From: Nitrosopumilus sp. K4 | GTDB lineage: Archaea > Thermoproteota > Nitrososphaeria > Nitrososphaerales > Nitrosopumilaceae | Direction: 5' to 3' | Length of the DNA stretch: 64,000 nt | Assembly: GCF_018128925.1 (NCBI RefSeq) | Contig: NZ_CP067007.1 | Coordinates: forward strand, 970,164-1,034,163 | Shown: positions 108 through 8,289 of the stretch, one piece after another | Position numbering within the stretch: the first letter of the stretch is position 1 | How the letters are laid out: each line of letters opens with the position of its first letter | Program-made: the position numbers and the translations under genes | Notes under the pieces: model-generated | What the model saw: only the letters and a program-made list of their open reading frames with translations | What the model was told of the DNA's origin: nothing | Databases searched by the model: none

Positions 108-227
108 TTCATGATATATAAGATGGTGCTAACTTTTTTTCTAGTGCCAAATTTGCACATATAACATCTAGTGGTAAATAATTTTTTTCTCGTTTGGCTT
201 TTTAAATTATCAGAGAGGATTTTTCAG

Positions 228-787: not shown

Positions 788-2167
788 TCAAATAGGTGTT
801 CCTTTGTATTGATAATCAATTACTTTATGAAATGTGTTATGAGATGCAATTATTGCAATTGCTGCAATTGCAGTTCCAACAAAGTTTCGTATAGTAATTG
901 CATAGTTTGGAATGTCAGATATCAGAGTAGTACTAAAAACAAAATAAAAATTATCAAATAACCAAAACGCCATAGTTATCCAAGAAAGCACACCTCCAAT
1001 GAGATAACCAAGACGAGTCTTATTTTTGACAAATATGATTGCAGAAAGTATTGCAATGTACCAAACCACACTTGCAAAAATCCATGCAGGTTCATATACA
1101 CTGGGCCTATCATCTAGCCAATAATACGTAGATCCTATTACAGCCATGGCTACAAGGGACACCATCAATAGTTTCTGATTTATCTGAAATCCTGTTTTTT
1201 CATGCTTTAGTTCAACAGGAGGGGGATTTTGCTGCATTTCTTTAGTTGCAATGTCAATAGATTCTCGAACAGATTTTAACCGAATGGGAATGATTTTGGT
1301 GATAGAATCATCTGTTACAACAGTATCATGAACTAGACTGTCAATCAAGGGCCGTGCAAGAGATGCCTTTACAGGAGTAATCAGATCAACCCAATAAGAT
1401 GAAAGGCGGGTTGTCAGAAATGGAATTTGAATAATGAATAGATTTTTGTTCAAATATGCTGCATAAACACGCATTAACTCTTCATAAGTCATTTTGTCAG
1501 GACCACCAATTTCATAAATTTTCCCTGCAGTTTCATCATGTTCCATACATCCAACTAGATAAGACACTACATCATCAACTGCAATTGGTTGAGCCATAGA
1601 TTTTACCCACGAAGGTGTAACCATGATTCGTAATCGTTCTACCAGATATCTCAACATGGCATAAGAGCCACCTTTTGCACCAATGATTAGCGATGCACGT
1701 AACTCAGTAACAGGAATGTTACCGGAAGATAAGATCTCACCAACTTGTTTTCTACTTTGCATGTGAGGTGATAAACCCAAACTATCATTTACTAATCCAC
1801 CAAGATAGATAATTCTCTTAACACCTGCATCAGTAGCAGCCTTAAGAAAATTTTTGGCTTGGAGTTTTTCACGAGAAGTAAATTCTTTCCATTGTTCTTT
1901 GCTACCTTCCATTGAATGAAGCAGATAATATGCAGTTTCAATTCCCGTCATTGCTTTTTTTAGCTGTTCAACATCAAAAACATCTACTTGAACATACTTT
2001 ACATTATTTGTATCATCAATCTTGTTTCTACTCATTCCTTTTACAGTATACCCTAAAGAAACCAAATGTGAGATCAATCTAGAACCAATAAAACCAGTTG
2101 CGCCAGAAACTAAAATAGAGTAAGGAGTATTTTGATGATAAGAATCTTCAGACAATTTCTGATTCAT
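788..2167 (-). CDS. NAD(P)-binding SDR-family protein with C-terminal membrane domain
   Basis: About 459 residues from ATG 2167 (a GTG lies immediately before it at 2170). Residues about 17-300 form an atypical/extended short-chain dehydrogenase: glycine-rich nucleotide loop GATGFIG near residue 22 and YLLHSM and YLGGL segments like those of NmrA/complex I 39-kDa-type SDRs. The last 130 residues hold about four hydrophobic segments (a domain resembling the DUF2867-SDR fusion proteins but membrane-embedded). Substrate unknown; probably a quinone- or lipid-related oxidoreductase at the cytoplasmic face. The start codon overlaps the stop of a short upstream frame (TGATG), suggesting coupling with the small gene at 2165-2328. 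Confidence 0.75.
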   Translation of the reverse strand: MNQKLSEDSYHQNTPYSILVSGATGFIGSRLISHLVSLGYTVKGMSRNKIDDTNNVKYVQVDVFDVEQLKKAMTGIETAYYLLHSMEGSKEQWKEFTSREKLQAKNFLKAATDAGVKRIIYLGGLVNDSLGLSPHMQSRKQVGEILSSGNIPVTELRASLIIGAKGGSYAMLRYLVERLRIMVTPSWVKSMAQPIAVDDVVSYLVGCMEHDETAGKIYEIGGPDKMTYEELMRVYAAYLNKNLFIIQIPFLTTRLSSYWVDLITPVKASLARPLIDSLVHDTVVTDDSITKIIPIRLKSVRESIDIATKEMQQNPPPVELKHEKTGFQINQKLLMVSLVAMAVIGSTYYWLDDRPSVYEPAWIFASVVWYIAILSAIIFVKNKTRLGYLIGGVLSWITMAFWLFDNFYFVFSTTLISDIPNYAITIRNFVGTAIAAIAIIASHNTFHKVIDYQYKGTPI

Positions 2168-2328
2168 CACTCTACCTCAATGCACCAATTTGTTGTTTTT
2201 GTGGACGATTTACCATGAAACCCAATCCCATCAAGACAATACCCAACTGAAAGGATTGATTTATCCAAGTGGCGGCCTCCTGAATGTTCGCTTTCTTGTA
2301 ACATTTTTTGCGGTGGTGTCATGAACAT
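2165..2328 (-). pseudogene. small gene with apparent frameshift upstream of the SDR
   Basis: The frame from ATG 2328 starts convincingly (MFMTPPQKMLQESEHS), then turns into low-plausibility residues rich in Cys, His and Trp before a TGA that overlaps the SDR start. One base out of register, the same DNA encodes a protein-like hydrophobic tail (ATWINQSFQLGIVLMGLGF followed by VNRPQKQQIG) ending in TAG at 2172. That second frame has a stop immediately upstream and no good start of its own, so the two halves look like one roughly 50-residue membrane peptide split by a one-base shift near 2270. It may be a decayed gene, a sequencing error or recoding. Confidence 0.4.
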
Positions 2329-2455
2329 GTTGTTTTTATGTTGTTAAATTATTTAAACTGCTGATAAAATCATATTCTAGTGCTAAAAGGGTGCCTAATT
2401 TATGAGAGCATTGAAAAAATCAAAAATTGGCACTATAAAATATAGTTAGCATTAG

Positions 2456-2464
2456 TTATATATC
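2456..2464 (+). promoter_or_regulatory. TATA box of the B12-binding protein gene
   Basis: TTATATATC lies about 24 bases upstream of ATG 2484 with no ribosome binding site between them, the arrangement of a leaderless archaeal transcript. A TAGTGCTAAAA element sits further upstream near 2376. Confidence 0.5.
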
Positions 2465-2483: not shown

Positions 2484-3326
2484 ATGGTGTACATCAGAGC
2501 CAAGAAAGTAAAATCAGATCAATATCTGTATCTTGTCAAAAGTGTATGGGATTCAAAGAAAAACACTTCAAAACAAGAGATTGTGAAATATCTGGGAAAA
2601 GCCTCTGATGTAGACAAGGATGACATTCCAACAGATTATAGAAATGATCCCAAAATATTATCAGTACTAGCAAAATTCAATCCCAAAGATATCAAAAAGA
2701 GAGAAGAGGCATCAAAAAAATCCAAACAACAACTATTCCAAAAATTAACAGATGGTGATATTCAAGGTTCGCTGAAAATTTATGAAGATTATATCAAAAT
2801 TTTTAATGCATCTGACTTTTTTGATAAAATTCTAAAACCGGTGATGTATAAAGTCGGTGATGATTGGGCAAAAGGCAAAATAAGTATCGCTACAGAACAT
2901 GTGGCAAGCAATGTAGCTCAGACATTGGTAAAAATTATCATGGAGCGAGTTTCAGCCACAGGAAGTAAAAAAAGGATCATGATTTGTGTGCCTCTAGGAG
3001 AAGAGCATCATCTCGGATGCGATGTAATTGAAACTTATCTGTCAATAAAGGGCTTTAAAATATACAACATGGGAACATCATTACCAACAGAATCAATACT
3101 TAGTTTCATCGATGCCAATAAACCAGATGTATTACTGTTATCAATTACTTTAGAAGACAATTTATCTGCAGGACAAAGACTGGTGAGAAAAATTAAGGAT
3201 CAATTCAACATTCCAATATTAGTAGGCGGATTTGCATTTCAATCTAAAAAAATTCCAAAATTTGATGCAAAAATTATTGTAGAATCTACATTAGAAGAGA
3301 TTCCAAGACTCATCAGAACAGCATAA
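2484..3326 (+). CDS. cobalamin-binding CarH-like protein, putative B12 photosensor
   Basis: 280 residues. The C-terminal two thirds match the MerR-CarH type B12 module. A helical bundle carries the W-x9-EH motif (W128, E138, H139), which in CarH caps the upper face of adenosylcobalamin. It is followed by a Rossmann-like domain with E173-x-H175-x-x-G178, whose His would be the lower ligand; CarH has W131, E141, H142 and H177, so the spacing is nearly the same. Residues 1-40, however, are not a MerR helix-turn-helix: the segment (YIRAKKVKS, YLVKS, IVKYLGK) resembles the N-terminal domain of some IS4/IS1634-family transposases, and residues 65-90 are Lys-rich. Light-dependent DNA or RNA binding is an inference. 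Alternatives are a redox or B12-level sensor. It has its own promoter. Confidence 0.8.
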   Translation: MVYIRAKKVKSDQYLYLVKSVWDSKKNTSKQEIVKYLGKASDVDKDDIPTDYRNDPKILSVLAKFNPKDIKKREEASKKSKQQLFQKLTDGDIQGSLKIYEDYIKIFNASDFFDKILKPVMYKVGDDWAKGKISIATEHVASNVAQTLVKIIMERVSATGSKKRIMICVPLGEEHHLGCDVIETYLSIKGFKIYNMGTSLPTESILSFIDANKPDVLLLSITLEDNLSAGQRLVRKIKDQFNIPILVGGFAFQSKKIPKFDAKIIVESTLEEIPRLIRTA

Positions 3327-3420
3327 AATTACATTTTTAGATAAGATAAAATTTTTGAGAAAATTAGCACTAGTCAAAAAAACATAACCGGCTTAAATAT
3401 TCTTAAACCTAAATTACATC

Positions 3421-3594
3421 ATGAAAACAAAAATCATTCATCAAGAAAAAAATGATGAATCTTTAGTTTATGTTAATTCAAATATCAAAATTTGCATAAT
3501 ATGCGGTAATCACAATATTGAGTTTTTTGAACATGGAATATCATGTGAAGAATGCGGAACAACATTTGGGAGACAAAAATGCTTAGTGAGTTAA
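3421..3594 (+). CDS. small zinc-ribbon protein upstream of TFB
   Basis: 57 residues, missed by 60-residue cut-offs. C25-x2-C28 and C42-x2-C45 separated by 13 residues form a TFIIB/TFB-like zinc ribbon; a fifth Cys is at 54. The last 16 bases overlap the start of the TFB gene in another frame, so translation of the two is probably coupled. The geometry matches the ribbon that the downstream TFB lacks in complete form. It could be a stand-alone rubredoxin-like or ribbon regulator, or supply a ribbon function in trans; only the Cys pattern and position support this. Confidence 0.65.
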   Translation: MKTKIIHQEKNDESLVYVNSNIKICIICGNHNIEFFEHGISCEECGTTFGRQKCLVS

Positions 3595-4484
3595 TTCATC
3601 AAAATAACTGTAAAAAAATTAGAATTGTTACAGATTTTGATACGGGTGAGATTGCATGTCAAAATTGTGGTGCAGTATCACCAGAAAAAGCAGTGGCATT
3701 AGGTCCTGAAAACACAGGGTTGACAAAAGAAGAATACTTAACTTCATTCAGAGCAGGAAGGAAAATTTCTCTAAAGATGGCAGATATGGGATTGCCAACG
3801 ATTATAGAATCAAAGGATAAAGATGCAACAGGCAAATCACTTTCAAGAGAAAACCGTAAAATGTTTTATCGTTTGCGTATATGGGACAGAAATAGTCGTT
3901 CAGCAAACACTGTAAAATCATTGCAAAAGGCATTTTTGTTGTTAGACGGGATTAAGACAAAACTTGCAATACCCGAATCAGTGGTAGAGCAAACAGCGTA
4001 TATTTTTAGAAAAATATCTGCAAAAAAGATACTTAGTGGAAGGTCCACATCCAGTATTCTTTGTGCTACCGTATACATTGCATGTAGATTGACAAACACC
4101 CCAAGAACCCTGCAAGATATTGCAAATGCAGGAAATATCAGAAGAAAAAATCTACAAAAGACATACAGATTTTTGGTCAAAGAGTTAGAAATTTACCCTG
4201 AAGCATACAATCCCCATGAATTTGTATCAAGGATTTCAAAGGCAATTAAAATCTCTGAAAAAACAGAAAGATTAGCGTTTAGAATTGTAACTCTAGCTGA
4301 AAAAGAAGGAATATCTACTAGCAAAAACCCAATGGCAATTGCAGCAGCTGCAGTTCATGTAGCTGCACAAAAAAATAAAGAAAAAGCATCACAGGTTAAA
4401 ATTTCTCAGACATCAGGAATCAGTGCAGTGACTATCAGAGATAGAACTAAAGAAATCAAAAAAAGAATATGGAGCGAAATTTAA
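3579..4484 (+). CDS. tfb: transcription initiation factor B (TFB) with degenerate zinc ribbon
   Basis: 301 residues from ATG 3579; an earlier ATG at 3552 lies inside the overlapping peptide and adds nothing conserved. It recruits RNA polymerase to TBP-bound promoters. Seen: the N-terminal ribbon keeps the second pair C27-x2-C30 but the first pair is reduced to C11 (Q8 at the expected Cys; H7 beside it), a B-reader-like segment around 60-100, and two cyclin-fold repeats at about 105-190 and 205-295 (ILCATVYIACR and AIAAAAVHVA core helices). Thaumarchaea encode several TFBs, so this may be a specialised paralogue. The stop overlaps the next start (TAATG). Confidence 0.93.
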   Translation: MLSELIHQNNCKKIRIVTDFDTGEIACQNCGAVSPEKAVALGPENTGLTKEEYLTSFRAGRKISLKMADMGLPTIIESKDKDATGKSLSRENRKMFYRLRIWDRNSRSANTVKSLQKAFLLLDGIKTKLAIPESVVEQTAYIFRKISAKKILSGRSTSSILCATVYIACRLTNTPRTLQDIANAGNIRRKNLQKTYRFLVKELEIYPEAYNPHEFVSRISKAIKISEKTERLAFRIVTLAEKEGISTSKNPMAIAAAAVHVAAQKNKEKASQVKISQTSGISAVTIRDRTKEIKKRIWSEI

Positions 4485-6886: not shown

Positions 6887-7840
6887 CTATTTTCTAGATT
6901 TTTTCTTTGCAGGTTTCTTTTTTGTTGTTTTCTTTACAGTTTTTTTCTTAGGGGCAGATTTTTTTGTTGGTTTTTTCTTAGATGCTTTCTTTGCAGCAGT
7001 CTTTCTAGCAGGTTTTTTCTTTGCAGGTTTCTTTTTTGTTGTTTTCTTTACAGTTTTTTTCTTAGGGGCAGATTTTTTTGTTGGTTTTTTCTTAGATGCT
7101 TTCTTTGCAGCAGTCTTTCTAGCAGGTTTTTTCTTTGCAGGTTTCTTTTTTGTTGTTTTCTTTACAGTTTTTTTCTTAGGGGCAGATTTTTTTGTTGGTT
7201 TTTTCTTAGAAAGGTATTCTTTTAGTCTAGCAGTTGCTCGTTCAAGTGCTTTTTTAGCTGATTCTTCTGCCTTGGTTCTTTTCTCTAGCTCCTTTTCTAA
7301 TTTCTTAGCCTGTTTGTGCCCGGTAGCCATTTTCTCTCTCAAATCAGGTTTGGCTTTGGTCTGTTTTTGAATTTTTGAGGATATTTTGGATTTAATATCA
7401 TTGAACTTGGCCACCTCATCAGCAAGTTTTTTTGCAGTTTTGGTTCTAGACTTTATTTCAAATTCCAGTTCACCGATATGATTTTGAAGTGTTTTTAATC
7501 TTGACTCAGCATATGACTTTTCTTCAGGGGTTTCAGCAAATTCAATCTCTTGTTCTGCTTGAATGATAGCCTCTTTTTCGCGTTCCAATCTTTCTTTGGC
7601 AGATGCTATCAATCTTTCAATACTCTCAATTTGAGCATTTTTTTGAGTTAAAGTTTCAGAAACTTCTGATGCATCTTCTTTTTCAGATTCGATTTTTTTA
7701 TCAATAGTGTTTAATCCAGAGGAAGATCTTCTTTCAAGTGATCTATATTCTTTATACTGCTTTTCAGCTTTATTCTTTAACTTAGTTGCTTCTTGTTTCT
7801 TTTTTCTTAATTCAAGTACTAATTTTTCTAATGTTGCCAA
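6887..7840 (-). CDS. coiled-coil protein with histone-H1-like Lys/Ala/Pro tail
   Basis: 317 residues. Residues 1-205 are almost wholly heptad-like coiled coil rich in Glu and Lys, with SMC-like character but no ATPase. Residues about 210-317 are an H1-like tail of repeats built from KKPTKK, SAPKKK, TVKKTTKKK, PAKKKPARK and TAAKKASK, 38 residues per unit, nearly three units. Such tails bind DNA without sequence specificity, so a chromatin-organising or DNA-bridging role is likely. It is divergent from 7978 and convergent with SSB. Bacterial AlgP/HC1-like tails are similar by composition only. Confidence 0.75.
   Translation of the reverse strand: MATLEKLVLELRKKKQEATKLKNKAEKQYKEYRSLERRSSSGLNTIDKKIESEKEDASEVSETLTQKNAQIESIERLIASAKERLEREKEAIIQAEQEIEFAETPEEKSYAESRLKTLQNHIGELEFEIKSRTKTAKKLADEVAKFNDIKSKISSKIQKQTKAKPDLREKMATGHKQAKKLEKELEKRTKAEESAKKALERATARLKEYLSKKKPTKKSAPKKKTVKKTTKKKPAKKKPARKTAAKKASKKKPTKKSAPKKKTVKKTTKKKPAKKKPARKTAAKKASKKKPTKKSAPKKKTVKKTTKKKPAKKKSRK
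6900..7210 (-). repeat. 114-bp in-frame tandem repeat
   Basis: The H1-like tail is encoded by near-identical direct repeats with a period of 114 bp (38 codons), for instance starting near 6911, 7025 and 7139. The near identity suggests recent slippage or recombination and likely copy-number variation between strains. Confidence 0.85.
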
Positions 7841-7977: not shown

Positions 7978-8289
7978 ATGGATTTTCATCCAAAAGATTT
8001 GCCAGTAGCAAAAACGTTTGATCTAAAAGACGAAAAAGATGCGTTAGAAGCAGTTGAGGAGATGGTAAACATGGGTTTCAATAACAGAAAAGAGGGATTT
8101 AGAGTATTGATGCCAAAAGAAGCAAAGATTGCAAAGCGGATGGGATATACCATTACAACAGGAGTGACATCAGGCCTGCGAGATAAAAATGAGATCAGAG
8201 ACATAAAGTATTGGACATACCATCATGATCAAGAACACTATGCCATTGTTTTGATCAGCAACAAAACTTTGACAGAGTTAGGATTTTGA
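7978..8289 (+). CDS. uncharacterised small protein
   Basis: 103 residues from ATG 7978 (a TTG directly precedes it). No family is recognised. The sequence looks like a compact alpha/beta protein: an acidic helix (DEKDALEAVEEMVNMGF), a GFRVLMPKEAKIAKRMG segment and an aromatic stretch (YWTYHHDQEHYAIVLIS) near the end. No signal peptide or membrane segment. The end overlaps the convergent PAP2 gene by 12 bases. Confidence 0.6.
   Translation: MDFHPKDLPVAKTFDLKDEKDALEAVEEMVNMGFNNRKEGFRVLMPKEAKIAKRMGYTITTGVTSGLRDKNEIRDIKYWTYHHDQEHYAIVLISNKTLTELGF

Follow-up and report, generated by a model that had tools for sequence, protein, structure and literature searches.

The gene at positions 2484..3326 (+ strand) of the window, as we call the whole 64,000-nucleotide stretch of Nitrosopumilus sp. 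K4 DNA analysed here, encodes what is, with good probability, a one-component, adenosylcobalamin (AdoCbl)-dependent photoreceptor of ammonia-oxidising archaea (AOA) that also acts as a light-released repressor. Somewhat less firmly, we consider it probable that this archaeal B12 light regulator combines a CarH-type sensor with a DNA-binding module also found in transposases, and that it controls, through a conserved direct-repeat operator, a UV-repair and photoprotection regulon including a TFB, by which light would reshape AOA transcription. In the accessible open-access literature, no earlier description of a CarH-like or cobalamin-based light regulator was found for Archaea, Thaumarchaeota or Nitrosopumilus. 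The open reading frame begins with ATG, specifies 280 amino acids and represents a conserved family; its product is referred to below as the sensor protein.

Pfam matches the sensor protein to B12-binding_2 (residues 82-152, 2.8e-12) and B12-binding (residues 166-255, 6.3e-12), while the first 80 residues are without any Pfam match. A CarH-type cobalamin-binding domain, composed of a four-helix cap and a Rossmann fold, occupies residues 81-255 (2724..3248, + strand). The two motifs on which the initial annotation had built its CarH-type reading are present at the residues it named, namely the adenosyl-capping motif W128-x9-E138-H139 (2865..2900, + strand) and the lower-ligand (base-off/His-on) motif E173-x-H175-x2-G178 (3000..3017, + strand). 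CarH homologues are defined by Wx9EH together with ExHx2Gx41SxV/Tx22-27GG (PMC8156234), and the latter pattern is complete in the sensor protein in the form ExHx2Gx41SxTx25GG, running from E173 to G248-G249. The SignatureFinder signature, which was validated on light-responsive B12 domains (GxxW, EH, GxxH and GxxxP; PMC11796333), is complete as well, at G125-W128, E138-H139, G172-H175 and G197-P201. The best NCBIfam model is that of CarH (NF052513), with 59.2 bits, far under its 400-bit equivalog cut-off. The sensor protein carries A129 at the position of TtCarH H132, the upper ligand in the light state (PMC8156234), and this position is variable among relatives; as the residue following W128 is Ala rather than a cobalt-capping His, the light product should differ from that of TtCarH. 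The best PDB sequence match is the photocobilin SasPcob. Assignment as a photocobilin was ruled out, since the protein ends at residue 280 without a C-terminal domain.

W128, E138, H139, E173 and H175 are invariant across 47 aligned Nitrosopumilaceae sequences, and 65 of 66 family members, among them some with only ~30% identity, retain Wx9EH, whereas it is absent from the MetH of the window's own genome, which together argues that the B12-site residues are not there by chance. Homologues devoid of W-x9-EH, named in the initial annotation as evidence that would speak against a photosensor, were found only in a separate paralogue clade, to which the sole exception belongs. Of 136 Nitrosopumilaceae genomes, profile searches located the sensor protein in 76; they also located it in two more families of the same order (f2 and f3), with identities down to ~30%. 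The paralogue clade, which occurs in some Nitrosopumilus-type genomes (L101:7402-8265, L274-L279), has lost Wx9EH and is often encoded near a photolyase; its promoter bears a different conserved element, AGGTGCGTAA, followed by GGATTAAATA. This clade recalls the situation in Myxococcus, where the B12-independent CarA adjoins CarH.

In an AlphaFold model built with 47 sequences (pLDDT 85), three strands form a sheet at the N-terminus, which is followed by a helical cap and a Rossmann fold. Its 50 best PDB matches in Foldseek are all light-sensing B12 domains, with CarH leading and some photocobilin and CtMerR chains among them (E ~1e-12 to 1e-10; for the CarH B12 domain, TM normalised to target length ~0.8). 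Thermus CarH, the structure suggested for comparison in the initial annotation, is the best match of the predicted fold. In a tree of B12 domains, the archaeal proteins fall together with CarH-type and photocobilin-type domains, from which MetH and corrinoid proteins split off with a support of 100/100, the branching within the archaeal/CarH-type/photocobilin-type group being not settled. The full photoreceptor signature and its conservation, CarH as the nearest fold and the grouping with light-sensing B12 proteins all corroborate the CarH-type assignment of the domain.

The N-terminal domain (residues 2-39; 2487..2600, + strand) is a presumed DNA-binding domain of the IS1634 type, which the AlphaFold model depicts as a three-stranded antiparallel sheet with strands at residues 2-9, 12-23 and 28-39. 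Single-sequence matches to the starts of IS1634 transposases are weak (E ~0.05), and most annotated matches are IS1634 transposases; profile-profile comparison by hhalign with the IS1634 transposase N-terminus gave 98.9% probability and an E value of 3.5e-17. The resemblance to IS4-family transposases suspected at the outset is thereby narrowed to IS1634, formerly placed in the IS4 group. The N-terminus had also been described as unlike MerR, which agrees with the lack of a MerR match in Pfam and with the sheet found in place of a winged helix; a MerR-type regulator was ruled out on the Pfam result. Pfam detected no DDE domain (PF01609) in the sensor protein, whereas this domain is present in the IS1634 protein L226, and Foldseek with the N-terminal domain alone returned no significant structural match and no solved relative. 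A DNA-binding role is suggested by the place of this domain in transposases and by the candidate operator described below. The same domain heads ~295-aa Fic proteins in several other AOA genomes (L241-L246) and stands alone as a 74-aa copy (L091:4253-4477) after an SDR gene in G350, a genome of family f3, which indicates a mobile module. The stand-alone copy may compete for the operator without responding to light.

The candidate operator consists of two TTRGCACTAG direct repeats, 19 bp apart. Upstream of the sensor gene (2427..2462, + strand), TTGGCACTAT at 2427-2436 is followed after 9 bp by TTAGCATTAG at 2446-2455 and directly by the TATA box TTATATA at 2456-2462, with the ATG 28 bp downstream of the point where the TATA box begins. 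The upstream regions of relatives share the arrangement TTRGCACTAG-N9-TTAGCATTAG-TTATATA, in which the second repeat abuts the TATA box. Such a double site lies ahead of the sensor gene at 52 of 68 loci (38/46 in close and 14/22 in distant relatives) and was never encountered in Markov-resampled sequence; 49 of these 52 double sites have the 19-bp spacing. On the other side, the SDR/NmrA-type NAD(P)-binding protein (460 aa; 788..2170, - strand; Pfam), whose gene adjoins the sensor gene divergently in most relatives, is preceded by a mirror arrangement (2349..2386, - strand) of TTAGCACTAG at 2386-2377, 9 bp, a degenerate TTATCAGCAG at 2367-2358 and the TATA element TTTAAATAA at 2357-2349; this arrangement is also found in relatives, is somewhat degenerate in the window and differs there slightly from the genome-wide pattern. 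Between operator and SDR gene, positions 2165-2330 (- strand) likely hold the remnant of a small membrane-protein gene, corresponding to an intact 86-aa ORF of a relative (L005:5581-5841); in the window, the matching C-terminal part and the first ATG stand in different reading frames.

For genome-wide searches, the first repeat was required 29 bp before a TATA box, and this TATA-anchored pattern was used in place of the looser TTDGCACTAGN{0,12}TTW, which gave many coding-region matches in the window's own genome. Operator plus TATA occurs on average 3.8 times per genome with the sensor gene vs 0.23 times without it (reversed control 0.13-0.18), in a comparison that ignores kinship, so that the shared ancestry of the genomes makes p-values overstate independence. 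Within the single genus g6 the means are 4.9 vs 0.12, a contrast that is hard to explain otherwise despite shared ancestry. Six genomes of the two distant families contain the exact double site seven times genome-wide, six times at the sensor gene and once ahead of a small membrane protein, and four distant-family genomes without the sensor gene contain no exact double site. In G397 (L205), which belongs to the same genus as the window, no sensor gene was detected, yet a photolyase and two well-formed double sites are present; the assembly may have failed to capture the sensor gene.

Further candidate sites lie in the window. Downstream of the sensor gene, TTAGCACTAG at 3364-3373 stands 29 bp before the TATA box TTAAATA at 3393-3399 (3364..3399, + strand), and a candidate site occupies the same place before TFB in ~30 relatives. 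The first gene past it encodes a small zinc-binding-type protein (3421..3594, + strand; ORF and conservation), followed by the conserved neighbour at 3579..4484 (+ strand), a presumed regulon member which, from its family features, we take to be a TFB-like (TFIIB-type) general transcription factor. Towards the left end, a candidate double site (113..150, - strand; TTGGCACTAG at 150-141, TTAGCACCAT at 132-123, TATA at 121-115) precedes a secreted-type WVKNNAGWWADG-repeat protein (1-113, - strand), which runs off the window and belongs to a family without a Pfam domain that is repeatedly found behind the operator. Elsewhere in the window, positions 6887-7840 (- strand) encode a protein of 317 aa whose lysine-rich tail resembles histone H1 and consists of near-identical repeats (KKPTKKSAPKKKTVKKTTKKKPAKKKPARKTAAKKAS).

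Across genomes, the genes recurring behind the sites are those for the sensor, the WVKNNAGWWADG-repeat secreted protein, TFB with the small zinc protein, a PNPOx-like flavoprotein, a desaturase-like FAD enzyme, the SDR and several small proteins, together with the leading gene of photolyase operons; there are single cases of a pyrimidine-dimer glycosylase, Dps, a uracil-DNA glycosylase, RudS (2-thiouracil desulfurase + DUF1722) and a nitroreductase. Matches in the window's own genome precede the sensor, TFB, secreted protein, pyrimidine-dimer glycosylase and zinc ribbon genes, a nitroreductase gene at greater distance and, once, no clear gene. As a set, these genes resemble a regulon for protection against UV and light. 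Photolyase is absent from the window's own genome; across genomes, it is encoded by 30 of the 76 that have the sensor vs one of the 60 that lack it (Fisher 2e-8, a value in which shared ancestry overstates independence). Where sensor and photolyase genes share a contig, 20 of 22 pairs lie within 12 kb, and at L102 they nearly touch, the sensor ending at 8082 and the photolyase starting at 8084. The exact operator takes its canonical place at only nine of 26 photolyase loci, compared with none in the reversed control. The presence of photolyase, pyrimidine-dimer glycosylase, RudS and Dps adds independent support for light as the signal.

The computations establish the domain and its residues with their conservation, the fold, the homology of the N-terminal domain, the conserved operator and the content of the regulon, whereas we infer that the protein binds AdoCbl, changes its oligomeric state, contacts DNA through its N-terminal domain and exerts control in the direction given here, and that it responds to light. 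The C-terminal domain would hold AdoCbl through H175 as the lower ligand, while W128, E138 and H139 would cap the adenosyl group. This AdoCbl form is predicted to oligomerise in the dark and to place its N-terminal beta domains on both TTRGCACTAG repeats, 19 bp apart, and because the inner repeat touches the TATA/BRE region, we propose that the bound protein keeps TBP and TFB off. Illumination at wavelengths between UV and green would cleave the Co-C bond, alter the oligomeric state and clear the promoters, releasing the genes for the sensor, SDR, TFB, photolyase, pyrimidine-dimer glycosylase, RudS, Dps, the desaturase-like FAD enzyme and others. Repression is suggested by the inner repeat abutting the TATA box and by the CarH precedent; several putative targets carry the distal (outer) site only, and such sites would also fit an activator. 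Besides these targets, the points that weigh against the proposed photoreceptor-repressor are the missing MerR domain and the lack of a solved relative of the N-terminal domain, A129 in place of TtCarH H132, the absence of photolyase from the window's own genome and the low share of photolyase loci with an exact, canonically placed operator. A TFB among the targets points to a second layer of regulation.

The same domain could in principle report the cofactor level, and it is conceivable, if unlikely, that the protein is a DNA-bound regulator of AdoCbl supply, oxygen or redox, sensing the state of the Co-C bond or of cobalt, with light being incidental. AOA need AdoCbl for methylmalonyl-CoA mutase, the window's own genome encodes a stand-alone B12-binding subunit (G000:C1:508164) that presumably belongs to this enzyme, and Dps and nitroreductase among the putative targets are general oxidative-stress genes. 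Against such a role, every light-specific signature residue is kept, no cobalamin-synthesis or B12-enzyme gene was found behind the sites, and the recognisable targets photolyase, pyrimidine-dimer glycosylase and RudS answer light damage. More improbable still is that the TTRGCACTAG element is owned by another regulator or a particular TFB, with the B12 protein as merely one target. That the element is locked to promoters, 29 bp before the TATA box, and also stands before the TFB gene would suit this idea, as would the fact that binding by the N-terminal domain is a prediction; yet the element vanishes with the B12 gene even inside one genus, is nearly exclusive to the promoter of the B12 gene in distant families, and is replaced by AGGTGCGTAA in the paralogue clade without Wx9EH, as if each protein had its own site.

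A corrinoid or methyl-transfer protein, or a transposase relic, without any regulatory role is very improbable and largely refuted. The Pfam domains are common to MetH and corrinoid proteins and the N-terminus is transposase-like, but the DDE domain is absent, Wx9EH is present, the ligand motif has E instead of D, the tree separates the sensor from MetH and corrinoid proteins, and no methyltransferase genes adjoin it. A corrinoid methyltransferase was accordingly ruled out by Wx9EH, the tree and the neighbouring genes.

AOA are globally important and light-sensitive, and light limits them in surface waters; no light sensor of these organisms was found in the literature searched. A light-released repressor as predicted here from sequence would, if true, be the first candidate light switch for AOA and would tie photosensing to DNA repair and a TFB switch. 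How AOA respond to light and why certain lineages inhabit sunlit water, a long-debated ecological question, could thereby be tested with a single protein and its operator. Such a repressor would further mean that a CarH sensor can function with a DNA-binding domain other than MerR and on archaeal promoters, and archaeal genetics would gain a green-light switch.

Among known systems, CarH/LitR (Thermus thermophilus CarH, PDB 5C8D/5C8E) is similar in B12-domain fold, Wx9EH and ExHx2G, and in a tandem direct-repeat operator overlapping the regulated promoter, which is seen here in silico and differs in sequence and spacing. The CarH operator is made of 11-bp repeats (PMC8156234), whereas the archaeal sensor has a 19-bp spacing and a TATA/TFB promoter, lacks the His after the capping Trp and is only ~20% identical. 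Thermus carH adjoins photolyase, phytoene synthase and SDR genes, and relatives of the sensor likewise neighbour photolyase, SDR and carotenoid-type enzymes. In Pseudomonas, class II LitR controls photolyase, SDR and FAD oxidoreductase genes (PMC9758184), with RudS in one controlled operon (PMC11417400), and thus resembles the sensor in regulon content, but acts with a MerR DNA-binding domain on bacterial promoters. The photocobilins SasPcob and AbDPcob have the same W..EH and E/DxH B12 site; the sensor lacks their biliverdin-binding C-terminal domain and has a regulatory N-terminal domain. MetH and corrinoid proteins, apart in the tree, carry DxHxxG without Wx9EH, in contrast to ExHxxG with Wx9EH in the sensor. 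The first 40 residues are homologous to IS1634-family transposases, from which the sensor differs as a fixed, usually single-copy gene with its own operator and without the DDE catalytic domain. The sensor therefore works like CarH in silico, yet stands outside the MerR-type CarH family by its DNA-binding domain, an IS1634-type three-stranded domain in place of the MerR winged helix.
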